The notes under the pieces: model-generated | What the model saw: only the letters and a program-made list of their open reading frames with translations | Databases searched by the model: none | Told to the model about the DNA's origin: nothing | Shown: piece by piece, positions 6,294-29,767 of the stretch | Numbering within the stretch: the first letter of the stretch is position 1 | Layout: each line of letters starts with the position of its first letter | Translations under genes and position numbers: made by a program | NCBI GenBank assembly: GCA_039714315.1 | Contig: JBDLJM010000017.1 | Location: 1 to 34,809, forward strand | From: Bacteroidota bacterium | Lineage (GTDB): Bacteria > Bacteroidota > Bacteroidia > Flavobacteriales > JADGDT01 | Direction of reading: 5' to 3' | DNA length: 34,809 nucleotides

Positions 6294-7604
6294 ATGCTAT
6301 TAATCTATACCCATAAGATCACTCCAAGAATAAGATATATATTCAAACAAATTTTTCAAGGTTTTTTAGATGTAGAAGTTGGTTTTACATCAGGGGTAGA
6401 TGAGTTTATAGCTCATAAAGGTGCTAAGATTTCGTATTCTCGAAAACCATTGGGGAATGAGTTGTTTTTCCAGAGTCATAAAATATTATTTGACCAGGGA
6501 TTAAATGATATGGATATAGTTGTGACAAAATGGGATGATGTTCCGATATTTTTTCAGGTTGGAGAAAAATCAGCAATGCCTTTTGATATTTTTGGAGCGA
6601 GTTTTTATTTGTTAACCAGATTCGAAGAATATTTGCCACATATCCGCGATAATCATAACAGGTTTTCTTCTGTAGAAAGTGTTGCTTATAAAAATGGATT
6701 TATTAAAACCCCTGTTGTTGACATATGGGTAAATCGCTTATATGAAATTCTGGCAGAGAGGTTTGACTTAAAGGAAGGTAATACCAAAAAATTCAGGTTT
6801 GAATCAACAATTGATGTTGGACAGGCATATAAGTACAAAATGAAAGGTTTGATTAGGGGAGTTTCAAGCACCTTAGCAGATCTGTCATTACTTAGATTTA
6901 CGAAATTATATGATAGGGCTTTAAGTGTAGCCAATTTACGGAAAGATCCATTCGATAGTTTTAGCTTCCTTATAAGGTTACAGAAGAAATATAAAATGAG
7001 GATGAGGTATTTCTTCTTACTCGCAAATTATACAAGGTACGACAGGAATATTTCATATCACAGGGCTGATTTCAGGTCATTAATTAAATCGGTAGGAGAT
7101 AGGGCATATATTGGTTTTCATCCAAGTTATTATTCAAATATTGAACCTAAAAAATTTAAGATAGAGAAAGAGAGGTTAGAGGATATTATAAATTATAAAG
7201 CAAATGGGTCCAGACAACATTATATTAAGCTTCAGTTGCCCGAAACTTACCGGAATTTATTAGACAACGAGATCAATAATGATTATTCCATGGGCTTTGC
7301 TGATAATATTGGTTTTAGGGCATCAACATCTGAATCGTTCTATTTTTATGATTTGGATTTGGAGCTTCAAACCCCGTTAAAGGTCCACCCTTATGCTGTT
7401 AGTGATTATGCAATGAAGAATGAGCTTAAACTTTCGAAAGAGGAGGCAATAAATGAAATTTCCAGGATTATAGCTTTTGCCAAAATAACAAATGGCAAGT
7501 TTGTCAGTCTGTTTCACAATGACAGTTTAGGCAGGGATGAAGAATGGGAAGGTTGGCGAAATGTGTATTCCGAAATGGTTAAACTGGCGATGTCGGATAA
7601 TTAG
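6294..7604 (+). CDS. Polysaccharide deacetylase-like protein with DUF7033-type N terminus
   Basis: 436 residues resembling a Bacteroidota family annotated as polysaccharide deacetylase. The N-terminal part includes the characteristic FDIFGASFYLLTRFEEYLPH (98-117). The C-terminal part looks like a NodB-type barrel, with TIDVGQAYKYK at 172-182, YIGFHPSYYSN, and GFRASTSESF near the end. The family usually has Asp-Val-Asp at the first metal motif as I recall it; here D174 is followed by Gly176, so metal-dependent hydrolysis is uncertain. No signal peptide or membrane segment is seen. A TAATTTTG -7-like box at 6275-6282 would give a very short leader. Its last 4 nt overlap the convergent ATPase gene. 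Confidence 0.75.
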   Translation: MLLIYTHKITPRIRYIFKQIFQGFLDVEVGFTSGVDEFIAHKGAKISYSRKPLGNELFFQSHKILFDQGLNDMDIVVTKWDDVPIFFQVGEKSAMPFDIFGASFYLLTRFEEYLPHIRDNHNRFSSVESVAYKNGFIKTPVVDIWVNRLYEILAERFDLKEGNTKKFRFESTIDVGQAYKYKMKGLIRGVSSTLADLSLLRFTKLYDRALSVANLRKDPFDSFSFLIRLQKKYKMRMRYFFLLANYTRYDRNISYHRADFRSLIKSVGDRAYIGFHPSYYSNIEPKKFKIEKERLEDIINYKANGSRQHYIKLQLPETYRNLLDNEINNDYSMGFADNIGFRASTSESFYFYDLDLELQTPLKVHPYAVSDYAMKNELKLSKEEAINEISRIIAFAKITNGKFVSLFHNDSLGRDEEWEGWRNVYSEMVKLAMSDN

Positions 7605-8149
7605 GATTTTATATCCATATTATTTAATTCTGATTCTATTATTTCTTCAATCAAAAACTTTACTTCAGGATTTTGAATAGATATTCCATTTAGCTCATCT
7701 TTAATTTCCTGTGTTTTTATTGAGTAATATTTGTTTTCTTTTTTATATCCAAAATATATATTGATATCGGGATGAGATGAAAAGAGCATAGAAATTACCG
7801 ATGCTATATTTCCGAGAACGGGTCTGTCAATATGCGAAAGTTGAAATTGGGCTTTTACTACCGTACCTAAATTCAGTTTTGATTCTATTGAAAAACTGCC
7901 ATTGCAATTTTCGGCATTAGCTTTAAAAAGAGAGATACCTAATCCTACTTTTCTTGTTGTACGCGAACTTATGAAAGGATCGGTTACGGTCTTTAGCATT
8001 TCACTGTCCATACCACAACCATTGTCGGTAATTTTGATCGAGAGAAGGTCCTTATCAGTGTTTTCATCTATAGTAATTTCCAGGATGTCGGCATCTGCTC
8101 TTATCGAGTTCATCGCAATATCGAGAATATGTAGTGACAATTCTTTCAT
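7601..8149 (-). CDS. Small GHKL-type ATPase, hydrogenase-linked
   Basis: 182 residues: an isolated HATPase_c domain without dimerisation helices, phospho-acceptor His or sensor domain. The N box has N14 (LDIAMNSIRADA), G1 is DNGCGM (42-47) and G2 is VGLGISL (68-74). A C-terminal extension (about 110-182) is not recognised. It is last of six genes in the arm divergent from the hydrogenase operon and starts 2 nt after the PHP gene ends. Without a His-phosphotransfer domain it is more likely an ATP-dependent switch or protein kinase than a classical histidine kinase; its target is unknown. Confidence 0.82.
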   Translation of the reverse strand: MKELSLHILDIAMNSIRADADILEITIDENTDKDLLSIKITDNGCGMDSEMLKTVTDPFISSRTTRKVGLGISLFKANAENCNGSFSIESKLNLGTVVKAQFQLSHIDRPVLGNIASVISMLFSSHPDINIYFGYKKENKYYSIKTQEIKDELNGISIQNPEVKFLIEEIIESELNNMDIKS

Positions 8150-8151
8150 TT

Positions 8152-8859
8152 TTAAAGCATAGCCTTTTTTATGTTCTGGAAACTCAGAGTTTCTAATTCC
8201 AATTCTGTGTACCTTTTTCCGATATCACTTAAATAATGCGCATCGGATGATGATATGATAAATGTATCAGGTGGAATTTTGTATTTATTTTTGTGTTTGG
8301 AAAGATTTTCTTTATTGACAACTTCAATGGCATCATATTCTAAATCGTCAGGAATGAAACCCAGTTGTGAGCCAATACTGTTTCTGTGAGAGTCAATATG
8401 AGCGGGGATAAATATTCCTTTGAGCGATTTTACCTTTTCGCTTATCTCGAAAACACTTTGATCGATTGATTGTATCAGGAGTAGTTTTTCTTCCCCCATT
8501 ATATTTTCCCTTTCATCTACTATAAGTTGATTTCCAAAGAACTTAGGATTGTTTTCTTTCTTATTGATAAATTTATCAAGGTATTTCTGAAATTCTGAAA
8601 GCCTGTTCTCATCAGGGAAAAAGCAAAGACAATGTACTTCTTCCTTCGATGTTACTTCGGCACCCATCATTACAAAAATGTTGTTTTTACTCCCGATATC
8701 TCTACAAACTAATGCGTTTTTTGTGGAGTTATGATCGCTGATTCCTATAATGTCTAAACCCTTAACCAAAGCCTGATCAATTATCATTGGAGGGCTCATG
8801 TCAATATCTCCGCATGGAGAGAGGACTGTATGTATGTGTAGATCAGCTTTGAATTTCAT
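8152..8859 (-). CDS. PHP-domain metallophosphoesterase
   Basis: 235-residue PHP (polymerase and histidinol phosphatase) domain protein. Metal-ligand motifs are intact: ADLHIHTVLSPCG (H8, H10), SDHNS (D42, H43), GAEVT (E68), H76, PAHIDSH (H154) and SSDAHYL (D206, H208). The family hydrolyses phosphoester bonds using two or three metals, but the substrate cannot be read from sequence. It lies between the DRTGG and GHKL ATPase genes in the divergent arm of the hydrogenase island. PHP genes recur beside [FeFe]-hydrogenase operons of anaerobes; a nucleotide or phosphoprotein substrate in a signalling role is inference. Confidence 0.9.
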   Translation of the reverse strand: MKFKADLHIHTVLSPCGDIDMSPPMIIDQALVKGLDIIGISDHNSTKNALVCRDIGSKNNIFVMMGAEVTSKEEVHCLCFFPDENRLSEFQKYLDKFINKKENNPKFFGNQLIVDERENIMGEEKLLLIQSIDQSVFEISEKVKSLKGIFIPAHIDSHRNSIGSQLGFIPDDLEYDAIEVVNKENLSKHKNKYKIPPDTFIISSSDAHYLSDIGKRYTELELETLSFQNIKKAML

Positions 8860-8873
8860 AGTGTACTTAGTTT

Positions 8874-9209
8874 TTATTTTCTAAGTATTTCGTAAAGCAT
8901 ACCTCCAATCTCAAAAGCACTTTTGTTACTGCCAAGGATTGGAATTCCTTCTTCTTCGGCAGCTTCCAGCATATTTTTATCCGGAGTTTGTCCATCGATA
9001 AGTATAACGGCACTAAGATCGTTAAGCGAAGCTACGGCCAACACATTTTTATGGGTTTGAACCGTTATCCACACCTGACCTTCATCGCTTTTTCCCATTA
9101 CATGACTTAACAAATCACCTGCAAATCCGTCTTTAACCTCCGGCGATAAATCGGCATTTTTGTTAAAAACCTTCAGATTAAGTTTGTTTACAATTTCGCT
9201 TACTGTCAT
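8874..9209 (-). CDS. DRTGG-domain protein (copy A)
   Basis: 111 residues, a stand-alone DRTGG domain. This alpha/beta fold is known from the middle of some phosphotransacetylases and CBS-domain proteins, where it is probably a ligand-binding or regulatory module. Visible traits are the N-terminal VSEIVNKLNLKVF, the core VLAVASLNDLSAVILIDG and EEEGIPILGSNKSAFEIGGMLYEIL at the C terminus. It has no catalytic motif. A second DRTGG gene opens the same operon (11013-11357). The gap to the upstream HydS-like gene is 6 nt, so co-translation is likely. Confidence 0.8.
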   Translation of the reverse strand: MTVSEIVNKLNLKVFNKNADLSPEVKDGFAGDLLSHVMGKSDEGQVWITVQTHKNVLAVASLNDLSAVILIDGQTPDKNMLEAAEEEGIPILGSNKSAFEIGGMLYEILRK

Positions 9210-9215
9210 TGCTGT

Positions 9216-10568
9216 TTAGTGTTTTTTAAATTTATTCTTCCCCCAGATATCTTCAAGGATTTCCTTACTTTTCTTATGATCCAGACCTTGTTTTTCTTCA
9301 AGTTTACGTTGAATTACAAAGCAATATTCAATACTTGCTTTTTCCTCAATTATATTTCTTGTTAATGATTTACATGAAGGGTATCCACAGGCACCACAGT
9401 CTAAACTGGGTAGGATTTTAAAAATCTCCTGAGTTCTTTCCATCTTGGCCAGTGCTTTTAGAGGATCAGAATCATATTTAATTATTGATCTTGGTTCAAT
9501 TTTGTTGGTTTTTACATCTTCATACGATACATCACTGGTATGATTAATAGGTTTTTCTTCAGGGTTTTCGCTGTAGAATTCTGTGTAATATTTTGCTCTG
9601 TTTCTTAATCTTTGCGCAGTTAGAAATCTGTTTTGAGGAGTTAAAATTCCTCCGGCACAACCCTGATCGCAGTTTTTCATTTCTAAAAAGTCGATCTCAT
9701 TGCATCCCTGAGTTTCAATTTTGTCGAGAAAGGAGATAATATTTTTTGTACCGTCAATAGACAAACATGTTCCCGGAAGATTTTTTATCTCTCCTCCTGA
9801 TAGGCTCCATAAAATGTGGTCGGGTTCTATTGCATTGTTTGTGATTTCTTTTTTATGCCTTTTTTTTACCGTGTTCTTTTTAGTGAGAATTGATAGAATT
9901 TCGTTGAAGACAATATCCATATTTATTACACCGTCAAGAGCAGATTTACTTCCTCCGATGGGAGCTTTGAGGGATGTTATTTTTGCAGAACATGGTGTGA
10001 AGTAAAAAATGCCAACATCTTCTTTGTCTTTCAGTTGTTTCCGGATAGATGTGGCAGTTATATCAACGGGAGTTTCAATGTTCATTATATTTTCGGTTAA
10101 TTGTGGGAAGTTAACCTGAATAAGCCTCAAAACCGCCGGACAAAACGAAGATATAACCGGCAGAGATTCTTTTCTGTTTATTTTTTCAGTAAAAAGTTTT
10201 TCTACCAGTTGCGATCCTTCCTCAACCTCATAAACATAGGTAAAGCCCAGATCCTGTACTGCTTTAAAAACTTCTCTCGCTTTAATTCCCTGAGGAAACT
10301 GTCCCATGAATACAGAGGGTATCAAAGCAACTTTAGTTTTGAAATTATTAATTTGGTTCAAACCGTCATCTTCTACACTAATAGCTCCAACGGGACAAAC
10401 TCTGTAACATTCATCGCAATCAATACATCTCTCAGGGTTTAGATTAGAATGTCCATTCCAGATATGCAGGGCTTCTGTAGGGCAAACTTTTATACAATGA
10501 GAACACCCAATACATTTATCAGTATTAATATGTATGGCGTGATACAATGAGTTGGCTGAAGTGTTCAT
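9216..10568 (-). CDS. HydS-like [FeFe]-hydrogenase-related protein, putative H2/redox sensor
   Basis: 450 residues. N terminus: two [4Fe-4S] ferredoxin motifs (C19, C22, C25, C29; C48, C51, C54, C58). About 75-320: [FeFe]-hydrogenase large-subunit domain. C terminus: a CODH/RnfB-type Fe-S motif (C391, C394, C399, C416). All four Cys ligands expected for the H-cluster cubane are present (C143, C193, C300, C304), but the motifs are degenerate: SSFCPAV instead of TSCCPGW, TPCSAK instead of MPCxAK, EMKNCDQGC instead of MACPGGC. The proton-relay Cys of catalytic enzymes is Phe142. Such changes characterise sensory hydrogenases; Thermotoga HydS is encoded near HydABC but carries a PAS domain, absent here. 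Sensor role is inferred; a scaffold or Fe-S electron carrier is possible. Confidence 0.85.
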   Translation of the reverse strand: MNTSANSLYHAIHINTDKCIGCSHCIKVCPTEALHIWNGHSNLNPERCIDCDECYRVCPVGAISVEDDGLNQINNFKTKVALIPSVFMGQFPQGIKAREVFKAVQDLGFTYVYEVEEGSQLVEKLFTEKINRKESLPVISSFCPAVLRLIQVNFPQLTENIMNIETPVDITATSIRKQLKDKEDVGIFYFTPCSAKITSLKAPIGGSKSALDGVINMDIVFNEILSILTKKNTVKKRHKKEITNNAIEPDHILWSLSGGEIKNLPGTCLSIDGTKNIISFLDKIETQGCNEIDFLEMKNCDQGCAGGILTPQNRFLTAQRLRNRAKYYTEFYSENPEEKPINHTSDVSYEDVKTNKIEPRSIIKYDSDPLKALAKMERTQEIFKILPSLDCGACGYPSCKSLTRNIIEEKASIEYCFVIQRKLEEKQGLDHKKSKEILEDIWGKNKFKKH

Positions 10569-10582
10569 TTTATTAATTTGTT

Positions 10583-11023
10583 TTATACTGTTGTCAGATC
10601 TATTTTTAAAGTAACTTTAGTACCATTTCCAACTTTAGATTCTACATTTAAATAATCAGAATTCTTTTTTATATTAGGAAGCCCCATACCTGCACCGAAT
10701 CCCATACTTGTTACTGTTGGAGAAGCAGTGGAGAAACCTTCTTCCATCGCTTTTTCAATATTTTCAATTCCCGGACCTTCATCATTTAATACGATAGAAA
10801 TATCTTTTGAATTAATGTCGACTTCAATATTTCCTTTATATGCATGAGCTACAATGTTAACTTCGGCTTCATATAACGAAACTACCACTCTTTTAATAGT
10901 TTTTGGCGGGATGTTTAATTGCTTTAATGTCCTTTTTATTTCACTGGATGCTTTTCCGGCATTGGCGAAATCTCCCCCTTCAATTTTATATTTAAAATTT
11001 ATTCCGCTCATATCAAAAAACAT
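10583..11023 (-). CDS. RsbW-like anti-sigma/serine kinase ATPase domain protein
   Basis: 146 residues, a single GHKL ATPase domain of the anti-sigma-factor type. N box SLYEAEVNIVAHAYKG, G1 NDEGPGI, G2 GFGAGMGLPNIKK. RsbW/SpoIIAB proteins phosphorylate a STAS antagonist and sequester a sigma factor; no STAS, PP2C or sigma gene is encoded in this window, so partners are unknown. The listed start overlaps the upstream DRTGG gene by 11 nt; an internal ATG at 11011 (MSGINFKYK, 142 residues) begins 1 nt beyond that gene's stop and is equally plausible. It precedes the HydS-like gene by 14 nt, which suggests that the two proteins act together. Confidence 0.87.
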   Translation of the reverse strand: MFFDMSGINFKYKIEGGDFANAGKASSEIKRTLKQLNIPPKTIKRVVVSLYEAEVNIVAHAYKGNIEVDINSKDISIVLNDEGPGIENIEKAMEEGFSTASPTVTSMGFGAGMGLPNIKKNSDYLNVESKVGNGTKVTLKIDLTTV

Positions 11024-11357
11024 CTTTTATTTCATTCGAATATAATATTCCGCAACACCTGTAAACTGACAAATTTGTAGAAATTAGAGAAATGTTTCCT
11101 TCGCGGGCCAATTCTACGATTTCTTCCGAAACTTTCTTTCCTTTCGCAATTATTACAAATGGAATATCTGCCATCTCCGCTGTTCGTATAGTTTGAGTAT
11201 TTGCAAGCCCGGTTATAAGAATATCAGGCTCATTTTCGAGAGTTAATACATCACTCATTAAGTCTGAAGCCACTACTGTTATTAATGATGTAGCACTATT
11301 AACAGCAATATTCAGAGGATTACCTTCAAGTATATTTATCAATTTTTCGGGCGACAT
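11013..11357 (-). CDS. DRTGG-domain protein (copy B)
   Basis: 114 residues, first gene of the divergent regulatory arm. Recognisable DRTGG-like features are the start LINILEGNPLNIAV, then VVASDLMSDVLTL and ILITGLANTQTIRTAEMADIPFVIIAKG, and the C-terminal LISTNLSVYRCCGILYS. It shares the fold pattern of copy A but little identity, so the two may form a heteromeric pair. There are two adjacent Cys in the C-terminal part. It starts 176 nt from the start of the divergent hydrogenase operon, within reach of shared operators. Confidence 0.75.
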   Translation of the reverse strand: MSPEKLINILEGNPLNIAVNSATSLITVVASDLMSDVLTLENEPDILITGLANTQTIRTAEMADIPFVIIAKGKKVSEEIVELAREGNISLISTNLSVYRCCGILYSNEIKDVF

Positions 11358-11385
11358 ATTTAACTTTTAGTATACATTAAACAAT

Positions 11386-11473
11386 GTTACAAAAGTTACT
11401 ATGTAACAAAAATGACATTAGTACATGTTTAAAAGTAACAAATGTCACTTAGAAAAACAGTAAATGTCATTTA
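11386..11473. promoter_or_regulatory. Cluster of small palindromes between the divergent hydrogenase arms
   Basis: Three related palindromes lie at regular spacing: AATGACATT (centre 11415), AAATGTCACTT (centre 11445) and the perfect TAAATGTCATTTA (11461-11473, centre 11467). The middle one belongs to a longer dyad AAGTAACA-AA-TGTCACTT (11433-11450) with one half-site mismatch. GTTACTATGTAAC (11395-11407) is another perfect palindrome. The spacings of 30 and 22 bp are near three and two helical turns. These look like operators for a dimeric regulator acting on both arms; the regulator is not identified. Confidence 0.5.
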
Positions 11474-11493
11474 TACACTTATGTATCCTTAGT

Positions 11494-11501
11494 TACATTT
11501 G
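11494..11501 (+). promoter_or_regulatory. Promoter -7 box of the hydrogenase operon
   Basis: TACATTTG is a perfect TAnnTTTG box. The -33 region falls at about 11470-11473 (TTTA, imperfect), overlapping the last palindrome of the operator cluster. Predicted start near 11508, leader about 26 nt. A TGTG-N10-CACA dyad (11503-11520) covers the start site. Confidence 0.5.
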
Positions 11502-11533
11502 TTGTGTAATATTTATCACATAAACTTTGAGAG

Positions 11534-11923
11534 ATGACAAAGATTAAATCCTTAAATGATTTGCGAAAATTGAGAGATCAGTTGCAATCTTCGATTGAAC
11601 TACGCGAAAATGCAGAAAGCCCGGATGCTGTAGTTCAGGTAAAAGTTGGAATGGCTACCAGTGGAATTGCCTCAGGTGCACGCGAAGTATTTAACTTTTT
11701 CGCAGAGGTTTTGCCAAAACGTGAAGTAAAGGCCATTGTGACCCAAACGGGTGATATGGGCTACAAATATGCCGAGCCTATTATTATGGTTACGCTTCCC
11801 GGGAAAAGTCCTGTTGTATTTGGTAAGGTCGATATTCCTAAAGCAGATGAGATAATTGAGAAATATATAAAGCACGGAGAGCTGGTGGATGGGATTGTAC
11901 CTGAGAGTTATAAAACTATTTAA
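11534..11923 (+). CDS. Cysteine-less thioredoxin-like ferredoxin homologue
   Basis: 129 residues, first gene of the hydrogenase operon. It matches the small thioredoxin-like [2Fe-2S] ferredoxin (NuoE/HydC C-terminal fold) often encoded beside NAD-linked [FeFe] hydrogenases: KVGMATSGIASGAREV (38-52) and VTQTGDMGYKYAEPIIMV (69-86). Homologues I recall have Cys at MGTCGIAAGA and TGCxGxCYAEP; here these are S43, D74 and K78. There is no cysteine in the whole protein, so it cannot hold a conventional [2Fe-2S] cluster although the fold signature is kept. A structural or regulatory subunit role is inference. The gap to hydB is 80 nt. Confidence 0.85.
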   Translation: MTKIKSLNDLRKLRDQLQSSIELRENAESPDAVVQVKVGMATSGIASGAREVFNFFAEVLPKREVKAIVTQTGDMGYKYAEPIIMVTLPGKSPVVFGKVDIPKADEIIEKYIKHGELVDGIVPESYKTI

Positions 11924-12003
11924 TTTTTAGTGGTAAATAAAAAAATGATATGGGAATAAGTTGTGGAATAAAATTCACATTTCTGCCAAATTAATTATTG
12001 ATA

Positions 12004-13800
12004 ATGACAAAGATAAATCAGCATATACTTACTTGTGGAGGAACCGGATGTAGAGCCTCTGAAAGTAAAATATTAGCAGCCCGGTTGAAAGAGGAATTGA
12101 AAAATTTTGATTTAGACCAAAACGTTAAAGTTGTGGAAAGCGGATGCTTCGGATTTTGTGAAAAAGGACCGATAGTTAAATTACTGCCCGATAATACTTT
12201 CTATACTCAGGTAAAGCCTAAAGATGCTAAAGAAATTGTAGAAGAGCATGTTTTAAAGGGACGAAAAATAAGTCGTTTACTTTATAAGGATCCTACTACT
12301 AATGAAACTATTGATGAATCAAAATCGATGGGTTTCTACAAAAAACAAATACGTATAGCTACACGTAACTGTGGTTTTATCGATCCGGAAAATATTGGAG
12401 AATATGTAGCTCGCAATGGTTATGAAGCGCTGGGGAAAACTGTTTTTGAGTTGAAACCTGACGACATAATCAATACTATAAAAGCATCAGGACTTCGAGG
12501 AAGAGGTGGTGGAGGTTTTCCAACCGGATTGAAATGGGAACTTACTGCGAAATCGGAAAGCGAAAAAAAATATGTTGTTTGTAATGCAGATGAAGGGGAT
12601 CCGGGAGCTTTTATGGACAGATCGATACTTGAAGGAGATCCGCATTCGGTATTAGAAGCAATGGCAATTTGCGGCTATGCAATTGGAGCAGATGAAGGAT
12701 TAATTTACATCAGGGCAGAATACCCTTTGGCTATCGAAAGATTGAAAATAGCGATTAAGCAGGCAGAAGAAGTTGGTTTGATCGGAGATAATATTTTGGG
12801 ATCGGATTTTAGCTTTAATATAAAGTTAAAATACGGTGCAGGAGCATTTGTATGCGGAGAAGAAACAGCGTTAATACATTCTATGGAGGGATTTAGAGGG
12901 GAACCTACTCTAAAACCTCCATTTCCTGCCGAACGAGGTTATTTCGATAAGCCGACAAATGTGAATAATGTTGAAACACTGGCTAATATTGCGGCTATAA
13001 TAAATAAAGGTGCAGAGTGGTATTCAAGTATCGGTACCGAGAAATCGAAGGGAACGAAAGTTTTTGCCTTAGCCGGTAAAATAAATAATGTAGGCTTAAT
13101 AGAAGTGCCTATGGGTACAACTCTTAGGGAAGTGATTTTTGATATTGGGGGAGGAATTAAAGACGGTAAAAAATTTAAAGCCGTACAAACAGGAGGTCCT
13201 TCCGGAGGATGTTTAACAGAGGAACATTTAGATACACATATAGATTTTGATAACCTATTGGCTATTGGATCTATGATGGGATCCGGAGGAATGATTGTAA
13301 TGGACGAAGACGACTGTATGGTTTCAGTCGCCAAATTCTATCTTGAATTTACAGTAGAGGAATCATGCGGGAAATGTGCACCATGTAGAATAGGTAATAA
13401 GCGACTTCTTGAAATCCTTGAAAAAATATCAAATGGAAAAGGAACTCGTGATGATTTGTTCTTGCTTAGAAATATGAGTGAGGTAATAAAAGATTCTTCA
13501 TTATGTGGCTTAGGACAGACCTCTCCAAATCCTGTTTTATCTACTCTGGATAATTTCTGGGATGAATTTGTTGAACATGTTGATGATAATAAGTGTAGAG
13601 CAGGACAGTGTAAATCGATGTTGAAATATGTGATCAGCGAAGATGACTGTGTTGGATGTACTGCATGTTTCAGAGTTTGTCCTACCGGTGCAATTACCGG
13701 AAGCAAAAAAGAAGTTCATATTATAAATCAGGATTTGTGCATTAAATGTGGAGCTTGTATGGATAAGTGTCATTTCGAATCAATTGAGCTAATCGCATAA
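12004..13800 (+). CDS. hydB: NAD-linked [FeFe] hydrogenase subunit HydB (NuoF-like flavoprotein)
   Basis: 598 residues. It carries FMN and the NAD(H) site, and links NAD(H) and ferredoxin to HydA in electron-bifurcating or NAD-dependent [FeFe] hydrogenases. N-terminal thioredoxin-like [2Fe-2S] domain (C11, C16, C48, C52); FMN/NADH-binding motif GRGGGGFPTG (166-175) and NADEGDPGAF (194-203); SLBB region; [4Fe-4S] motif C455, C458, C461, C501; C-terminal double ferredoxin (C549, C552, C555, C559; C579, C582, C585, C589). The ATG at 12004 is preferred over a TTG at 11998, two codons upstream. hydA follows after 5 nt. Whether it truly bifurcates cannot be proved from sequence. Confidence 0.95.
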   Translation: MTKINQHILTCGGTGCRASESKILAARLKEELKNFDLDQNVKVVESGCFGFCEKGPIVKLLPDNTFYTQVKPKDAKEIVEEHVLKGRKISRLLYKDPTTNETIDESKSMGFYKKQIRIATRNCGFIDPENIGEYVARNGYEALGKTVFELKPDDIINTIKASGLRGRGGGGFPTGLKWELTAKSESEKKYVVCNADEGDPGAFMDRSILEGDPHSVLEAMAICGYAIGADEGLIYIRAEYPLAIERLKIAIKQAEEVGLIGDNILGSDFSFNIKLKYGAGAFVCGEETALIHSMEGFRGEPTLKPPFPAERGYFDKPTNVNNVETLANIAAIINKGAEWYSSIGTEKSKGTKVFALAGKINNVGLIEVPMGTTLREVIFDIGGGIKDGKKFKAVQTGGPSGGCLTEEHLDTHIDFDNLLAIGSMMGSGGMIVMDEDDCMVSVAKFYLEFTVEESCGKCAPCRIGNKRLLEILEKISNGKGTRDDLFLLRNMSEVIKDSSLCGLGQTSPNPVLSTLDNFWDEFVEHVDDNKCRAGQCKSMLKYVISEDDCVGCTACFRVCPTGAITGSKKEVHIINQDLCIKCGACMDKCHFESIELIA

Positions 13801-13805
13801 CTATC

Positions 13806-15590
13806 ATGGGAAAAATAAATATAGAAATAGATAATAAAAAAATACAGGTAGAAGAAGGATCTACTGTATTGGAAGCAGCCAAATCTCTGGGGATTGATAT
13901 ACCAACTCTTTGTCATATGAATCTTCACGATTTGGATGTTGAAAATAAGCCTGCCGGTTGTAGGGTTTGTACTGTTGAGATTGAAGGGAGAAGAAATTTA
14001 GCACCTTCATGCGCCACAGATGTTTACGAAGGAATGAAAATTAAAACCAGTACAATGCGTGTTATTAATGCACGACGTACAGTAATGGAGTTTATTCTTT
14101 CCGATCACCCTAAAGATTGTCTGGTTTGTGCCAAAAACGGTGTTTGCGATTTGCAGGATATGGCAGCAAAATTAGGAGTTCGCGAAATTCCTAATCAGGA
14201 GATTTATGAAATGTCAACTTACCGACTTGATACTTCGCCTTCCATTGTTAGAAATATGGATAAGTGTATCATGTGCCGTAAGTGTGAAACTATGTGTAAC
14301 GAGGTGCAGACAGTGGGTGCTTTACACGCAGTAGGACGTGGATTTGAGTCAGTGGTTAGTACACCTTTCCATATGGATTTGGAGGATACAACCTGTACTT
14401 ATTGCGGTCAGTGTGTTGCTGTTTGTCCTACCGCTGCATTAACTGAAGTTGATCATACAAATAATGTTATCAGAGCTATATCAGACCCTAAGAAGACTGT
14501 TGTAGTACAAACTGCTCCGGCAGTACGTGCGGCTCTTGGAGAAGAGTTTGGTATGGAACCGGGTAATTTAGTTACCGGTCAAATGGTTTCAGGGCTAAGG
14601 GCTTTAGGCTTCGATTATGTTTTTGATACCGATTTTGCTGCCGATGTTACCATTATGGAAGAAGGTACTGAGTTGCTTGACAGGCTGGGTAAACACCTTG
14701 CCGGTGATAAAGATGTAAAATTGCCAATACTCACTTCCTGTTGTCCGGGTTGGGTAAATTTCTTCGAGACTCAGTTTCCCGATATGTTAGATATACCATC
14801 AACGGCACGTTCTCCTCAACAGATTTTTGGTTCTATTGCCAAAACATATTTTGCGGATAAGCTTGAAATCAATAGAAAAGATATGGTTGTGGTTTCTATC
14901 ATGCCGTGTCTGGCCAAAAAATATGAAGCTCAACGTGATGAGTTTAAAGTAGATGAAAATCCTGATGTTGATTACTCTATTACAACCCGTGAGTTGGCAC
15001 AGCTGATGAAACAAGCTAACATGAACCTTGTAAATCTGCCGGAAGAAGATTTCGATCAACCTATGGGAGAGTCAACCGGAGCCGGTGTTATTTTCGGAAC
15101 AACAGGAGGTGTAATCGAGGCCGCTACCCGTACAGCTTACGAAGTTCACACTAAGAAAGAGCTGGAAAACGTTGAGTTTAAACAGTTGAGAGGTATGGAA
15201 GGTATACGCGAAGCAACGATAGATTTTGACGGATTAGATATAAAAATAGGTATTGCTCACGGACTTGGAAATGCACGCAAGCTGCTTGAAGATATACGTT
15301 CAGGGAAATCAGAATTTCACGCGATTGAAGTTATGGCTTGTCCGGGTGGATGTATTGGTGGAGGCGGACAGCCTTATCACCACGGTGATTCTGGTATTCT
15401 TAAGAAAAGAGCTCAGGCACTTTATAGAGAAGACGAAGGTAAAGCTAAGAGAAAATCTCATTTAAATCCGGCCGTAAAAAAGGTTTATGAAGATTTTCTG
15501 GGAGCTCCGATGAGTGAGAAAGCACACCATCTGTTGCATACTAATTATTTTAATAAGTGTGCCACCGGACCAGAGATTGTTAATGATTAA
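13806..15590 (+). CDS. hydA: [FeFe] hydrogenase catalytic subunit HydA (group A3-like)
   Basis: 594-residue enzyme for reversible H2 formation or uptake at the H-cluster, in the cytoplasm. Clusters in order: [2Fe-2S] (C36, C52, C55, C69), His-ligated [4Fe-4S] (H101, C105, C108, C114), two ferredoxin-type [4Fe-4S] (C154, C157, C160, C164; C197, C200, C203, C207), then the H domain with intact TSCCPGW (310-316, proton-relay C312, ligand C313), MPCLAKKYEA (C368) and MACPGGCIGGGGQP (C512, C516). A short small-subunit-like tail (about 535-580) follows. There is no signal peptide. The domain set and HydB/HydC neighbours match trimeric NAD/ferredoxin-linked enzymes. It contrasts with the degenerate homologue at 9216-10568. 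Confidence 0.97.
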   Translation: MGKINIEIDNKKIQVEEGSTVLEAAKSLGIDIPTLCHMNLHDLDVENKPAGCRVCTVEIEGRRNLAPSCATDVYEGMKIKTSTMRVINARRTVMEFILSDHPKDCLVCAKNGVCDLQDMAAKLGVREIPNQEIYEMSTYRLDTSPSIVRNMDKCIMCRKCETMCNEVQTVGALHAVGRGFESVVSTPFHMDLEDTTCTYCGQCVAVCPTAALTEVDHTNNVIRAISDPKKTVVVQTAPAVRAALGEEFGMEPGNLVTGQMVSGLRALGFDYVFDTDFAADVTIMEEGTELLDRLGKHLAGDKDVKLPILTSCCPGWVNFFETQFPDMLDIPSTARSPQQIFGSIAKTYFADKLEINRKDMVVVSIMPCLAKKYEAQRDEFKVDENPDVDYSITTRELAQLMKQANMNLVNLPEEDFDQPMGESTGAGVIFGTTGGVIEAATRTAYEVHTKKELENVEFKQLRGMEGIREATIDFDGLDIKIGIAHGLGNARKLLEDIRSGKSEFHAIEVMACPGGCIGGGGQPYHHGDSGILKKRAQALYREDEGKAKRKSHLNPAVKKVYEDFLGAPMSEKAHHLLHTNYFNKCATGPEIVND

Positions 15591-15678: not shown

Positions 15679-16176
15679 ATGTCAATAGTTTGTGAAAAAG
15701 ATAAATTACAGTTACAGCACCAATTGCGAATAAAAGAAATTTGCAAGGGTTTTAATGGTAAACATTCAGAGTTGATAAATATACTTCACGCCTGTCAGGG
15801 CTACTTTGGTTATTTGCCTGCCGAAGTACAGGAAGCAATTGCAATGGAAATTAATATGCCGGTTTCGAAAGTATACGGAGTAGTTACTTTCTATTCTTTC
15901 TTTACTATGAAACCTAAAGGGAGATTCCCAATTTCTATTTGTACCGGAACAGCCTGCTATGTAAGAGGTGCTGATAAATTAATAGATGAATTTAATCGTG
16001 AATTAGGAATCGATCTTGGTCAAACAACCGAAGATGGTAAGTTTTCTATGAGTAGTTTACGATGCGTGGGAGCATGTGGATTGGCTCCGGTTGTTATGAT
16101 AGGAGATAAAACTTATGGTCATGTTTCGCCAAATAAGGTGAAAAAGATTTTGAAAGAGTATAAGGATGAGGAATAA
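15679..16176 (+). CDS. hydC: NAD-linked [FeFe] hydrogenase subunit HydC (NuoE-like)
   Basis: 165-residue [2Fe-2S] thioredoxin-like subunit of the trimeric hydrogenase, homologous to complex I NuoE. The N-terminal helical part (ELINILHACQGYFGYLPAEVQEAIA) precedes the cluster domain with CTGTACYVRG (C88, C93) and RCVGACG (C129, C133), all four ligands present. It passes electrons within the complex next to HydB. Here it follows hydA, whereas several known operons start with hydC. An 88-nt low-complexity spacer separates it from hydA. It is the complete counterpart of the cysteine-less ferredoxin-fold protein at 11534-11923. Confidence 0.95.
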   Translation: MSIVCEKDKLQLQHQLRIKEICKGFNGKHSELINILHACQGYFGYLPAEVQEAIAMEINMPVSKVYGVVTFYSFFTMKPKGRFPISICTGTACYVRGADKLIDEFNRELGIDLGQTTEDGKFSMSSLRCVGACGLAPVVMIGDKTYGHVSPNKVKKILKEYKDEE

Positions 16177-16217: not shown

Positions 16218-17642
16218 ATGAAATTCATACCACAAGAATATAAAATTAAGGATGAGCCAATGAAAGAATTCATCGATAAAGATGAATTATGGGACTTCAT
16301 TGACAATGCCGATACCAGTGCTGAAAATATAAGGGCAATTATTGCAAAATCAATATCTAAAGAAAGATTGAATTTAGCAGAAGTTGCCAGTTTAGTACAA
16401 ACTACCGACCCTGGTTTAGTAGAAGAAATTAAAGAAGGCGCACGATTGCTTAAACGTAAAGTATATGGAAACAGAATAGTTTTATTTGCTCCATTATATG
16501 TTGGTAATTTATGCGCAAACAATTGCGAATATTGTGGTTTTAAAGCTTCGAACAAGGAAGCGAAGAGAGTTACGCTGAACAACCGGCAGTTAGTGGAAAA
16601 TGTTGAAGCCTTAGAAGATAATGGTCATAAACGTTTGATTTTGGTATATGGTGAGCACAAAAACTATTCACCGGAATTTATTGCTGAAAATGTAAAAGCT
16701 GTTTACAAAGTAAAGAAAGGAAATGGCGAAATCAGACGTGTAAATATCAATGCTGCACCACTGGATATTGAAGGTTTCAGAACAGTTAAAGAAGCCGGAA
16801 TTGGAACTTTCCAGGTTTTTCAGGAAACATATCATACGGAGGCCTACTCAAAATACCATACAAAAGGTAAAAAAGCTGATTTCGGAAACAGATTGACATC
16901 ATTAGACAGAGCACAGGAAGCAGGATTGGACGATGTAGGTATCGGTGCTCTATTCGGTTTGTACGACTGGCGTTTCGAAGTAATGGGGCTGGTACGTCAT
17001 ACCAATCACCTGGAGGCTTGTTATAATGTTGGTCCGCATACTATTTCTTTCCCGCGTATTCAGGATGCTCTGGAAAATAATGTTTCAGAAGAACATTTGG
17101 TAAGTGATGAAGATTTTACGAAGCTGGTTGCGATATTAAGATTAGCGGTTCCATACACAGGATTGATTCTTACGGCGCGTGAGCCACAGGAAATAAGAAA
17201 AGAAGTTTTACAGTTTGGATGTTCACAGGTTGATGCCGGTACCAAAATAGAAATGGGAGCTTATGCGGAGGATACATTAAAAAAGCAAAAATTAAATAAT
17301 GAGCAGTTCCAGATAAACGATGAGCGTTCGTTAGCAGATGTTATTGATGAATTGATTGAAACTGATTACCTGCCTTCTTTTTGTACTGCCTGTTACAGAG
17401 CAGGTAGAACCGGTGAGCATTTTATGGAATTCTCGGTTCCCGGCTTTATCAAAAAGTTCTGTACTCCAAATGCGATTTTAACATTGGCAGAATATGTAGA
17501 AGATTATGCCAGACCGGAATCGAAAGATAAAGGTTGGAGTTTGATAGACAAGAATTTGATTGATTTAGAACCAAAATTAAAATCGAAAGTTGAAAAACGA
17601 TTGGAGTTGGTTAAAGAAGGAGAGAGAGATTTGTATTTTTAG
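16218..17642 (+). CDS. hydG: [FeFe] hydrogenase maturase HydG (radical SAM tyrosine lyase)
   Basis: 474 residues, the normal length. HydG cleaves tyrosine with SAM to make CO and cyanide for the [2Fe] subcluster of the H-cluster. The radical-SAM motif CANNCEYC gives C99, C103, C106 (CX3CX2C), and the C-terminal auxiliary cluster motif CX2CX22C is intact (C389, C392, C415), which separates HydG from ThiH. An internal ATG (M15) is a possible alternative start. It follows hydC by 41 nt and starts the maturation half of the operon. Confidence 0.97.
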   Translation: MKFIPQEYKIKDEPMKEFIDKDELWDFIDNADTSAENIRAIIAKSISKERLNLAEVASLVQTTDPGLVEEIKEGARLLKRKVYGNRIVLFAPLYVGNLCANNCEYCGFKASNKEAKRVTLNNRQLVENVEALEDNGHKRLILVYGEHKNYSPEFIAENVKAVYKVKKGNGEIRRVNINAAPLDIEGFRTVKEAGIGTFQVFQETYHTEAYSKYHTKGKKADFGNRLTSLDRAQEAGLDDVGIGALFGLYDWRFEVMGLVRHTNHLEACYNVGPHTISFPRIQDALENNVSEEHLVSDEDFTKLVAILRLAVPYTGLILTAREPQEIRKEVLQFGCSQVDAGTKIEMGAYAEDTLKKQKLNNEQFQINDERSLADVIDELIETDYLPSFCTACYRAGRTGEHFMEFSVPGFIKKFCTPNAILTLAEYVEDYARPESKDKGWSLIDKNLIDLEPKLKSKVEKRLELVKEGERDLYF

Positions 17643-17741: not shown

Positions 17742-18971
17742 ATGAAAAAACCTAAAGACATAAAACCACACATAGGAATTTTCGGCAGACGAAATACCGG
17801 AAAAAGTTCTTTTATTAACTTTTTGAGCGGGCAGGAAACTTCTATTGTTTCTCCTGAAGCCGGAACAACTACTGATCCTGTGAAAAAATCTATTGAAATT
17901 TTTGGAATAGGACCTGCTGTTATTATTGATACTGCCGGGATTGATGACGTAGGCGAATTAGGAAAAAAGCGTATTGAAAAATCAATAAAAGCTATTGACC
18001 TGATAGATATGGCTGTATTGATTATTTCCGGGAACCTGTTCGGTGAATTTGAAATTGATCTGCTTAATAGTTTCGAAAAGAAGAAAGTTCCTTTTTTGAT
18101 TATTCACAATAAGGTTGATGTTGATGTATTGCATCCGGAACTTTTACTTAATATTAAAGAAAAAACAGGTTCTGAATGTCTGCAAATTTCAACTTTTAAT
18201 AAAAAAGATAAAGAAGCTGTAATTGAAGATTTCAAAAAAACAATTCCCGAAACAGCCTATAAAAACAAAGCTCTTTTTGATGGTTTGTTGAAACAAAAGA
18301 GCACTGTTTTGTTGGTTACTCCGATAGATTCTGAAGCTCCGGAAGGTAGAATGATCCTGCCTCAGGTTATGGCTATTCGTAATGTTTTGGACGAAAACTC
18401 TATTTGCGTGGTTGTAAAAGAAAGTGAATTGTACGATGTAATGTCGTGGGGAATGAAATTTGATTTGGTTGTTACCGATAGTCAGGCGTTTGACTATGTA
18501 TCAAAGATGGTTCCGCAAGATACTTTACTAACGAGTTTTTCAATTCTTTTTGCAAGGCTGAAAAGCGATTTCTATCATTATTTAGGCGGTACAAGCAGGA
18601 TTTCGTCACTAAGTGACGGAGATAAAGTTTTGATACTTGAATCTTGCACTCATCAGGTAAGTTGTGACGATATCGGGAGATTTAAGATTCCAAAATGGCT
18701 GACTGATTTTACCGGTAAAAAATTAGACTATGAGTTTATTTCAGGATTTGATATTCCCGAAGAAGATATAGAAAAATACTCTCTGGTAGTACAATGTGGA
18801 GGTTGCGTAGTAACAAAAAAGCAGTTACAAAACAGAATTCAACCGGCTATTGATGCAAGAATACCTGTTACTAATTACGGGATGGCGATAGCTTATGTAA
18901 ACGGTATTTTTGAAAGAGCGATTAAACCGTTTTTTGCTATAGAGACTGAGAGAGCCGGAATAAGAGATTAA
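17742..18971 (+). CDS. hydF: [FeFe] hydrogenase maturation GTPase HydF
   Basis: 409 residues. HydF is the scaffold that assembles the [2Fe] subcluster and delivers it to HydA. N-terminal GTPase domain: P-loop GRRNTGKSS (15-23), G3 DTAG (63-66), G4 NKVD (123-126). The C-terminal Fe-S domain has C302 and H304 (ESCTH), C352 and C355 (VVQCGGC). The family consensus as I recall it is CxH...HCxxC; here the His before C352 is Gln351, so the exchangeable fourth cluster ligand may differ. Transcribed between hydG and hydE. Confidence 0.96.
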   Translation: MKKPKDIKPHIGIFGRRNTGKSSFINFLSGQETSIVSPEAGTTTDPVKKSIEIFGIGPAVIIDTAGIDDVGELGKKRIEKSIKAIDLIDMAVLIISGNLFGEFEIDLLNSFEKKKVPFLIIHNKVDVDVLHPELLLNIKEKTGSECLQISTFNKKDKEAVIEDFKKTIPETAYKNKALFDGLLKQKSTVLLVTPIDSEAPEGRMILPQVMAIRNVLDENSICVVVKESELYDVMSWGMKFDLVVTDSQAFDYVSKMVPQDTLLTSFSILFARLKSDFYHYLGGTSRISSLSDGDKVLILESCTHQVSCDDIGRFKIPKWLTDFTGKKLDYEFISGFDIPEEDIEKYSLVVQCGGCVVTKKQLQNRIQPAIDARIPVTNYGMAIAYVNGIFERAIKPFFAIETERAGIRD

Positions 18972-19008: not shown

Positions 19009-20094
19009 ATGATTCAAAAAATATTAAATACCGAAAACTACACAAAACAAAATCTGGTCAAACTTCTTCAGTCGGAAGGTAATGACAGGAAATTACTGTT
19101 TTCTAAATCATCAGCTGTAAAAGAAGAACATATCGCAAATATAGTTTATTTGCGTGCCCTGATAGAATTTTCCAATCACTGCGAAAAAGACTGTTTGTAT
19201 TGCGGAATAAGGAAAAGTAATTCATCCCCAAAAAGATATACAATTCCTCAGGAAGAAGTAAATAAAACAATAGATTCAGCCATAAATAAAGGATATTCTT
19301 CTATTGTAATTCAAGCCGGAGAATGTAAGGATGAAGAGTTTATAGAAACGATCAATAATGCTCTTATTTATGCAAAAGAGCAGAGTGGGAATAAATTAGG
19401 AATTACACTATCACTGGGCGAGCAGGAAAAATCAACTTATCAAAAGTGGTTTGATTTGGGAGCTCACAGATATTTACTGCGAATAGAATCGTCTAGTAAA
19501 GAGCTGTTCGAAACTATACATCCCCGAAACGAAAATCATTCTTTTGAAACCAGACTACAAAAGCTTAAAGAACTAAAAGAAATTGGATTTCAGGTAGGTA
19601 CAGGAGTTATGATTGGTTTACCAAATCAAACTTTGGAAGATTTAGCCGATGATTTACTTTTTATGAAAGCTTTCGATATTGATATGTGTGGAATGGGACC
19701 ATATATTGTTAGTCCTGATACGCCATTAGCAAAACTTGCTCATAAAATTCCATCTGAAGAAAGTAGAATTGATTTGAGTTTGAAGATGATTGCGCTTTTA
19801 AGACTTTTGATGAATGATATTAATATAGCTTCTACAACGGCTCTTCAAACATTGACGGAAAGAGCCAGAGAGGAAGGGATTAAAGTAGGTGCAAATATTA
19901 TTATGCCAAATCTTACAGCCGTAGATTTTAAAGAGAGCTATAAACTTTATAATAAGAAAACCGATCTTAAATCGCACGATGATACCTTAGCAGCTATTAA
20001 CCTGCAGATGGAAAGAGTTGGCCATAAAGTTGAAATTGGAAAATGGGGAGATTCTTTACATTTTGAAAAAAAGTGTTGCCATAAACTTATTTGA
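19009..20094 (+). CDS. hydE: [FeFe] hydrogenase maturase HydE (radical SAM)
   Basis: 361 residues, typical length. HydE is a radical SAM enzyme that processes the HydG-derived iron-CO/CN synthon on the way to the [2Fe] subcluster. The cluster motif is CEKDCLYC (C58, C62, C65; CX3CX2C), followed by GIRKSN and QAGE. The barrel ends near LTAVDFKESYKLYNKK. It is the last gene of the hydrogenase operon; its stop codon lies 2 nt from the stop of the convergent GH3 gene, with no room for a classical terminator in between. Confidence 0.96.
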   Translation: MIQKILNTENYTKQNLVKLLQSEGNDRKLLFSKSSAVKEEHIANIVYLRALIEFSNHCEKDCLYCGIRKSNSSPKRYTIPQEEVNKTIDSAINKGYSSIVIQAGECKDEEFIETINNALIYAKEQSGNKLGITLSLGEQEKSTYQKWFDLGAHRYLLRIESSSKELFETIHPRNENHSFETRLQKLKELKEIGFQVGTGVMIGLPNQTLEDLADDLLFMKAFDIDMCGMGPYIVSPDTPLAKLAHKIPSEESRIDLSLKMIALLRLLMNDINIASTTALQTLTERAREEGIKVGANIIMPNLTAVDFKESYKLYNKKTDLKSHDDTLAAINLQMERVGHKVEIGKWGDSLHFEKKCCHKLI

Positions 20095-28477: not shown

Positions 28478-29764
28478 TTAATTCAGGATCTTTTTCATAT
28501 CCAGTTTCGATAGCCCGTTGTAGAAATTAATACGGGCTATAAACTCTCCAATAGCGAAAAGAGCTATGCTTAACATATAGTGAAACGACAGGGCAAGTGA
28601 GACATATGCCAGTGCCACAAACGTGAAACGCAGTGCAATTGCCGCTGTGTTTTTCTTCGCTTTGTTGAGATTGAGGATCGTGAAAAGTGCCAACCTCAGT
28701 AGCATTATTACAAGCAGGACGTTGTATAATCCGGCAAATAGGAGGTAGAACGAAAGTGCTACAAATACAGCCTGTGCCGAATGTATTTTTATTTTGTTGT
28801 TTCGCTGTACAGGGCGGTATAGCATATCTATGGCAATTAGCAGTAGCATTCCCTGTATCAGAATTATGTAATCGGGGATGTTGTAAATAAACAGATCGAT
28901 AAATGCAGAGGTCGAGAATGTTGCGAAAAGAAAAATTTCTCTGCTCAACCACGATTTGCGTATGTTGAGTATCGCACGCCAGAATCTCAGTTTTTGTCCC
29001 AGATGCATAAGGCTTAAAACAGATGCTATTCCAGCAGTTGCTATAAATGCTATTTTAGAAATAAGGCTCGCTTCGTTAAAATTAATACTCGCATAAAGCG
29101 GTATCATTATCGCAATTACCGAAGTAAATATCAGCAGTGGAACTTCGTCGGCAGCTGTGATGTCTTTCTTGTGTTTTACTACTTTCTGTTCTTCCTCAAT
29201 TGGATCGAACAAACTCATATCCATTTTTGGCCCTTTACTATCTCTCAGTTCTATTATTTCGATAGACGGAATAGTGTTTATTGGGAGATGCAGATTGTTG
29301 TGTAATGTTGTTTTGTCAACTTCGCCGGAGGAGAAATCAAGTGCTCCCGTTGGGCATGTGCTAACACAGGCGGGTTGTTCGTTTTGTATAAGTCTTTGTT
29401 CGCAGAAATTACATTTAGAAACCACACCTTCTGCAAAACTGTATTTTGGAGCGTCGTAGGGGCAGTTCCATGTGCAGTACTGGCAACCGATGCACTTATC
29501 GGCTTCGTGGATAATAGCACCTGTCAGCAGGCTTCGCGAATAGGCTTCGGCAGGGCAGTTGTCCATACAAACAGCTTCCTCGCAGTGGTTGCACGACATG
29601 CTGAAATTAAAAAGACCTAATCCCGGTATTTTATTGGCGTTACTCTTGTTTATATTTCGCCAGTTTTCGGGTTCCTGCAGTCCGTTTTCGTTAATACAGG
29701 CAACAACACAGGCTTCACAGCCCACGCACTTATTTTCATCGAATATGAAATAATTTTTGCCCAT
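28478..29764 (-). CDS. DmsB-like ferredoxin fused to DmsC-like membrane anchor
   Basis: 428 residues. The first ~150 carry four [4Fe-4S] motifs (C13, C16, C19, C23; C58, C61, C66, C70; C91, C94, C97, C101; C118, C121, C133, C137) of the DmsB/NrfC type. From about residue 205 the protein has around seven or eight hydrophobic helices and resembles the DmsC anchor that exchanges electrons with quinol. In most organisms these are two proteins; the fusion is intact with no stop or frameshift. It starts 3 nt after the molybdoenzyme gene and would link it to the membrane quinone pool. Confidence 0.9.
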   Translation of the reverse strand: MGKNYFIFDENKCVGCEACVVACINENGLQEPENWRNINKSNANKIPGLGLFNFSMSCNHCEEAVCMDNCPAEAYSRSLLTGAIIHEADKCIGCQYCTWNCPYDAPKYSFAEGVVSKCNFCEQRLIQNEQPACVSTCPTGALDFSSGEVDKTTLHNNLHLPINTIPSIEIIELRDSKGPKMDMSLFDPIEEEQKVVKHKKDITAADEVPLLIFTSVIAIMIPLYASINFNEASLISKIAFIATAGIASVLSLMHLGQKLRFWRAILNIRKSWLSREIFLFATFSTSAFIDLFIYNIPDYIILIQGMLLLIAIDMLYRPVQRNNKIKIHSAQAVFVALSFYLLFAGLYNVLLVIMLLRLALFTILNLNKAKKNTAAIALRFTFVALAYVSLALSFHYMLSIALFAIGEFIARINFYNGLSKLDMKKILN

Positions 29765-29767
29765 TAT

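Follow-up and report, generated by a model that had tools for sequence, protein, structure and literature searches.

A conserved six-gene module with a group D-like hydrogenase homologue is a candidate regulator of electron-bifurcating complexes

The stretch of DNA analysed here (the window) is one complete contig of 34,809 nucleotides (nt) from a Bacteroidota source genome that is 99% complete (JBDLJM010000017.1 in assembly GCA_039714315.1). It carries a module of six open reading frames (ORFs), all co-directional on the minus strand between positions 7601 and 11357, which lies divergent from the operon for the [FeFe]-hydrogenase HydABC. In order of transcription, the six genes encode the following proteins, given with their lengths in amino acids (aa):

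11013..11357, minus strand: DRTGG1, a putative nucleotide-binding regulatory domain (114 aa; PF07085, 27.2 bits)
10583..11023, minus strand: RsbW/SpoIIAB-like GHKL ATPase, a putative protein kinase (146 aa; PF13581 (HATPase_c_2), 44.5 bits)
9216..10568, minus strand: group D-like HydS (450 aa; two N-terminal [4Fe-4S] motifs, an H-domain and a C-terminal Cx2Cx4Cx16C motif)
8874..9209, minus strand: DRTGG2 (111 aa; PF07085, 27.1 bits; Hpr_kinase_N, 29 bits)
8152..8859, minus strand: PHP-family phosphoesterase with a predicted complete metal site (235 aa; PF02811, 23.8 bits)
7601..8149, minus strand: stand-alone GHKL ATPase (HATPase_c; 182 aa; PF02518, 50.5 bits)

The first two genes overlap by 11 nt, the gaps that follow are 14, 6, 14 and 2 nt, and 176 nt separate DRTGG1 from a divergent gene for a 129-aa protein upstream of hydB. 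The original prediction, made from this DNA alone, had described six tightly ordered ORFs with one short overlap, whose content suggested a sensor and its relay. Both the coordinates and the spacing (-11 to 14 nt) agree with that description, the family matches of the six ORFs bear out the sensor and relay content, and the arrangement supports the existence of a single operon. The window ORFs examined included no recognisable sigma factor, response regulator or DNA-binding protein.

The search for relatives of the window HydS covered 396 genomes from across the phylum, the window's family, and the class that includes genome G172 (294 genomes). We examined 26 group D-like loci, including plasmid-collection records from Parabacteroides distasonis (locus L096) and the Clostridia member Subdoligranulum (L095). 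The relatives fall into two kinds, with unfused frames of about 420-485 residues on one side and longer frames (mostly 570-790 residues) of the PAS/kinase group C kind on the other. A profile search of the 294-genome class separates them widely, in that the best group C match has an E-value of about 1e-53 versus 1.7e-112 for the weakest group D-like match. A profile search of the genome contigs matched only the sister metagenome-assembled genome, and the HydS alignment found no relatives among viral contigs. All six genes occur in identical order in 18 of the 26 loci, and this exact order is found again in at least seven further families of the phylum, a recurrence that is more than chance. 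Joint conservation, which had been named in advance as a check, is thus confirmed.

The remaining eight loci are partial, rearranged or cut by a contig end (the last being the case for L042, L099 and L104). In the Clostridia locus, five of the genes stand together and the HATPase gene is placed in the facing hydC operon. Loci L112 and L113 (genomes G431 and G398) carry a reduced set, and L100 and L101 (G492 and G511) keep HydS and the HATPase but have lost DRTGG1, RsbW and PHP, with L100 also devoid of DRTGG2. Genome G543, from the same genus as G492 and G511, retains the set up to the end of its contig, and the latter two represent a natural minimal version. The Parabacteroides and Subdoligranulum records (NZ_OY725779.1 and OY725842.1) are labelled as plasmids; because the Parabacteroides record contains gyrA, it may be a mislabelled piece of chromosome.

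As judged from its sequence, the window HydS is group D-like, of the type represented by TamHydS from Thermoanaerobacter mathranii (group D, M2e; PMC8163306, PMC10407848, PMC13104023). Positions of TamHydS were mapped onto it from published residue numbers and mutagenic primers. The window protein matches Fer4, Fe_hyd_lg_C (90.9 bits) and the FeS domain PF04060, its predicted fold matches [FeFe]-hydrogenases, and all H-cluster ligands (C143, C193, C300 and C304) are present. As in TamHydS, a domain search finds no PAS domain, and the C-terminal Cx2Cx4Cx16C tail is formed by C391, C394, C399 and C416. Also shared are a Thr or Ser at the M353 position, which characterises group D (T191 in the window; PMC8163306), and the two conserved proton-path glutamates that TamHydS requires, E252, which is specific to the group, and E289 (E260 and E296 in the window; PMC10407848). 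Unlike TamHydS, which has Ala at the C299 position, the window protein carries Phe (F142). It also has H35/W37 and R404/N405 in place of R30/R32 and E392/D393, which are proposed to form a salt bridge joining the N- and C-terminal Fe-S domains and are frequent (>75%) but not universal in group D (PMC13104023). Most of the relatives retain these residues; both sides are changed only in the window's genus, and genome G397 is intermediate.

On the HydS tree, group C-like sequences form a separate clade with 100/100 support, and the Clostridia relative, which has Ala at the C299 position and keeps E252, groups with the 26 loci and apart from group C. The absence of a PAS domain and the separate clade speak against a group C sensory [FeFe]-hydrogenase as the identity of the window protein. 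Because all of the cysteines and both E260 and E296 are present and the maturases HydE, HydF and HydG are encoded in the window, HydS is predicted to be able to carry an H-cluster, and sensing of H2 is plausible in this organism.

Genes for a bifurcating complex lie on DNA continuous with the module in 22 of the 26 loci, and the nature of that complex varies. In the window's genus the module is divergent from [FeFe] HydABC genes, and the Clostridia locus faces a HydABC operon whose HydA and HydB are 48% and 61% identical to those of the window. In 18 Bacteroidota genomes, the module or its remnant is instead placed after genes for HdrC, HdrB and HdrA. Where the contig continues, genes for HydC, a thioredoxin-like protein, HydB, a BfuA-like subunit and a VhuD-VhuG-VhuA-type [NiFe] hydrogenase follow downstream; three of the 18 contigs (L099, L104 and L105) stop before the HydC and [NiFe] part. 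The BfuA-like subunit of these loci has no Fe_hyd_lg_C domain. A third arrangement, in G431 and G398, consists in order of DRTGG2, a DRTGG1-RsbW fusion, HydS, HydC, HydB and a NuoG/formate-dehydrogenase-like subunit. Because the partners vary ([FeFe], Hdr/[NiFe] or formate dehydrogenase) while the module and HydB/HydC stay, the constant neighbour is the NADH-dependent bifurcating core and not the [FeFe] hydrogenase. Two further loci, in G348 and P. distasonis, are stand-alone, with all six genes and no bifurcating enzyme adjacent. Taken by itself, the cluster running from HdrCBA through the module and HydC/HydB/BfuA to VhuD/G/A (L038, L039, L097, L098, L106, L109 and others) possibly encodes an NADH-linked heterodisulfide-reductase/[NiFe] bifurcating complex in Bacteroidota.

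The residues needed for H2 chemistry follow the type of partner. Variants E252V and E252D of TamHydS retain less than 0.01% of H2 oxidation (PMC10407848). The equivalent residue is Glu in all six HydS proteins from [FeFe]-linked or stand-alone loci (the window, G396, G397, G348, P. distasonis and Subdoligranulum), and every one of the 20 from Hdr/[NiFe] and formate-type loci has Gln, Leu or Ile at this position, with a loose local alignment in the two formate-type proteins. In most of these 20, the first N-terminal cluster motif no longer has its second Cys, and His takes the place of the cubane ligand C499 in both formate-type proteins. The proposed tie of the module to the [FeFe] hydrogenase and H2 is consequently not supported in its original wording, given the other partners and the loss of the E252 equivalent in the non-[FeFe] loci. 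Eleven genomes with [NiFe] loci encode no other Fe_hyd_lg_C protein and no HydF, HydG or HydE above cut-off, with a HydE-like match just under the cut-off in G488.

Other genomes (G156, G268, G348, G180, G489, G526, G506, G483, G447, G431 and G398) have a HydA-type [FeFe] hydrogenase, no HydF or HydG above cut-off and mostly no HydE. These genomes are mostly 93-100% complete, and the H-cluster motifs are intact in the HydA proteins checked (e.g. L046:4478-6487), so that either homologues were missed or another maturation route exists. Absence of HydEFG was accordingly downgraded as proof that an H-cluster is absent.

The small proteins of the module are candidate components of a relay. Both DRTGG proteins score above the Pfam cut-off of 25.2 bits, and DRTGG2 is retained in most loci. 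DRTGG1 has two motifs that are invariant among its relatives (SDxMSDVL and TGLxNxQ), and its AlphaFold model (predicted local distance difference test score, pLDDT, 93) is closest to the fold of 2ioj and to the CBS-DRTGG region of Mn-pyrophosphatase (3l2b/3l31), a match also found by sequence profile. Complexes of that region with AMP and Ap4A are known, and the fold match makes a nucleotide ligand for DRTGG1 a reasonable guess. In G431 and G398, DRTGG1 and RsbW are a single polypeptide (L112:8429-9226), and because of this fusion the two proteins are predicted to form a physical unit. The ATP-site motifs of RsbW (ExExN, DxGpGI and GFGaGmGLPN) are retained in 22 relatives. The PHP protein scores just below its Pfam cut-off (23.8 versus 26.4 bits; E=6e-5), its metal-ligand residues (H8, H10, D42, H43, E68, H76, H154, D206 and H208) are invariant in 12 relatives, and its nearest solved structure is Endonuclease Q (E=5.6e-6). 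The stand-alone HATPase has the motifs DNGxGM and GLG and no recognised phospho-acceptor domain, and its gene adjoins hydC in most co-directional loci; this placement is seen in the [NiFe] loci and in L095.

The module is real and conserved and belongs to a kind of system that is only partly known; claims made at the level of the module are well supported. We give about even chances to the proposal that it is a dedicated regulator of NADH-dependent electron-bifurcating complexes of the HydABC/BfuABC family, and its best reading is a redox switch for bifurcating enzymes that responds to H2 only where HydS keeps an H-cluster. This proposal builds on gene content, order, conservation, the natural fusion and the residue losses. 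From these we infer the identity of the input, the direction of signalling, the ligand, the kinase activity with its phosphorylation, the PHP substrate and the target. The input would come from HydS, an Fe-S protein of hydrogenase fold that responds to H2, to how reduced the ferredoxin pool is, or to both. Its signal would pass to the DRTGG1-RsbW unit, a GHKL kinase gated by a nucleotide, whose target would be either phosphorylated or bound. This relay would be tuned by DRTGG2 through a nucleotide ligand and reset by the phosphoesterase action of PHP, and the other GHKL ATPase, in most cases encoded beside hydC, would act on or near the complex. The output may be direct control of the bifurcating enzyme or a regulator encoded elsewhere. 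In lineages where the partner is [NiFe]/Hdr or formate dehydrogenase, HydS would probably sense redox state without H2 chemistry. More tentatively, and with somewhat less than even confidence, we suggest that in most Bacteroidota a hydrogenase-fold protein has become an H2-independent redox sensor, driving a nucleotide-gated GHKL kinase that controls bifurcating complexes regardless of the third substrate (H2 through [FeFe], H2/heterodisulfide through [NiFe]-Hdr, or formate).

Several observations weigh against this regulatory reading. The loss of the relay in G492 and G511 implies that it is dispensable, and G348 and P. distasonis have all six genes without an adjacent bifurcating enzyme. The HydS tree places the switch of partner and the loss of E252 at a single change, which makes their association one event rather than a replicated one, and we do not count a Fisher test of E252 against partner type as evidence. 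Absence of the maturases speaks against an H-cluster, weakly so because several genomes with an intact HydA likewise have no HydF or HydG above cut-off. Finally, the support comes from the comparison of genomes, sequences and predicted structures.

The closest competitor to a general redox switch is the H2-specific sensor of the original prediction, in which HydS binds H2 at an H-cluster and the module adjusts HydABC. The complete ligand set of the window protein, its E260 and E296, and the neighbouring HydEFG genes agree with this, as do the H2 turnover and H2-induced changes of TamHydS (PMC8163306, PMC13104023). However, modules whose HydS has lost H2-chemistry residues are retained beside [NiFe]/Hdr and formate-dehydrogenase complexes, and the Phe at the C299 position may also tell against it, so that an H2-only role seems unlikely. 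We likewise regard as improbable that the module serves assembly or maturation, with HydS a hydrogenase-fold scaffold of the Nar1/NARF kind and the GHKL ATPases chaperoning Fe-S cluster loading or assembly of the complex. Nar1-type homologues are known not to carry an H-cluster, and the losses in HydS, which keeps most Fe-S ligands while H2-chemistry residues are gone in 20 of 26 cases, parallel them. The module also tracks complexes of differing substrate with a common Fe-S-rich HydB/HydC core. For the Acetomicrobium mobile NiFe-HydABCSL operon, roles in maturation and/or regulation have been assumed for HydD, HydP and HisK (PMC8880783). Nevertheless, known examples of DRTGG and RsbW-type domains act in regulation, some loci stand alone without a client enzyme, and many HydABC enzymes have been made heterologously without such genes.

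Two further alternatives carry little weight. HydS might serve the complex as an additional subunit that carries electrons, with the small genes as its accessory factors and no part in signalling, as the co-transcription-like arrangement with hydC/hydB in 18 genomes would allow. This is very unlikely, since the module stands alone or faces the other way in some loci, and the purified A. mobile complex is described as five subunits without the HydD, HydP and HisK products (PMC8880783). It is highly improbable that the module works by canonical partner switching of the RsbW/SpoIIAB type, with a sigma factor as its target. The window RsbW resembles the SpoIIAB/RsbW anti-sigma kinases in its GHKL kinase fold and intact ATP-site motifs, but its match to TIGR01925 (spIIAB; 61.8 bits) is far under the equivalog cut-off of 135, and its fusion to DRTGG1 in two genomes sets it apart. 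The remark that no STAS antagonist or phosphatase is encoded nearby can be extended to whole genomes of the window's genus, in which no SpoIIE phosphatase (G000 and G396) and no stand-alone STAS protein were found, and STAS domains occur only in frames of 529-720 aa that are likely transporters. The classical SpoIIAB/STAS/SpoIIE switch was therefore rejected as unlikely for this genus.

Group D HydS genes beside HydABC were already known, whereas what appears to be new is the wider module and the finding that it is not bound to H2; searches of the open-access literature gave no account of the six genes as a set, or of such a set accompanying Hdr/[NiFe] or formate complexes. TamHydS has been proposed to be sensory, and identification of its partners has been named as critical (PMC8163306, PMC13104023). 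As in the window, its gene adjoins those for HydABC and a histidine-kinase-like ATPase, but the window differs in its divergent orientation, in that no AraC gene was found and in that the partners are resolved as six genes. In Thermoanaerobacter species, a group D gene and a histidine kinase lie upstream of HydABC (PMC3608648, PMC8163306). This neighbourhood follows the same principle and is a partial precedent, although the accessible text of PMC3608648 describes no DRTGG, RsbW or PHP genes and only an [FeFe] context. In the A. mobile operon, HisK and HydD similarly accompany a [NiFe] bifurcating complex as accessory genes, and HydP, by its name, may be a PHP gene; unlike the Bacteroidota loci, the operon has no reported HydS, DRTGG, RsbW or Hdr genes in the part of the source available (PMC8880783). 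Group C PAS-type proteins (TmHydS of T. maritima and HydS of R. albus) share the hydrogenase fold, the putative sensory role and the C-terminal [4Fe-4S] motif, but unlike the window HydS they have PAS and kinase/phosphatase domains fused on.

The signalling partners of group D hydrogenases have been stated to be unknown (PMC13104023), and the conserved gene order names five candidates. Among these, the naturally fused DRTGG1-RsbW is one directly testable pair, and the natural series of HydS proteins with and without the glutamate essential for H2 chemistry can be used to tell the sensing of H2 apart from that of redox state. If the regulatory reading is true, anaerobes would own a dedicated control layer for electron bifurcation.

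The module shares its promoter region with the following divergent hydrogenase operon:

11358..11533, no strand: divergent promoter region, a palindrome-rich block common to the sister genome; possible CRP/FNR-type operator
11534..11923, plus strand: HydD-like 129-aa protein, a thioredoxin-fold ferredoxin homologue without Cys; weak NCBIfam 2Fe-2S ferredoxin matches
11998..13800, plus strand: HydB, NADH/flavin subunit of the bifurcating hydrogenase (TIGR01959, 486.8 bits)
13806..15590, plus strand: HydA, [FeFe]-hydrogenase of group A6 (NF040763, 892 bits; cut-off 765)
15679..16176, plus strand: HydC, 2Fe-2S thioredoxin-like subunit (PF01257, 176 bits)
16218..17642, plus strand: HydG maturase (TIGR03955, 482.7 bits, above cut-off)
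17742..18971, plus strand: HydF maturase (TIGR03918, 469.7 bits, above cut-off)
19009..20094, plus strand: HydE maturase (TIGR03956, 306.6 bits, above cut-off)

Within the promoter block, TGTTAC-N12-GTAACA and AATGACATT are conserved between the window and the sister genome G396, and the counterpart region of G397 carries TGACATTTGTCA and TGATATTAGTCA in tandem. These palindromes hint at candidate CRP/FNR-type operators. HydA has the H-cluster motifs TSCCPGW, MPCLAK and MACPGGC and the features of group A6. HydD of A. woodii is a cofactor-less 15 kDa subunit (PMC6288185), and we infer that the 129-aa protein is HydD; its gene adjoins hydC/hydB in the [NiFe] loci too.

On the other side of the module, a DUF7033/VimE-like deacetylase gene (6294-7604) is convergent with it and overlaps the HATPase stop by 4 nt, and the sister genome has the same gene downstream of its module. 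Farther along the window, a pair of minus-strand genes (28478-31813) encodes a molybdopterin-oxidoreductase-like protein and an Fe-S/membrane-anchor-like protein.

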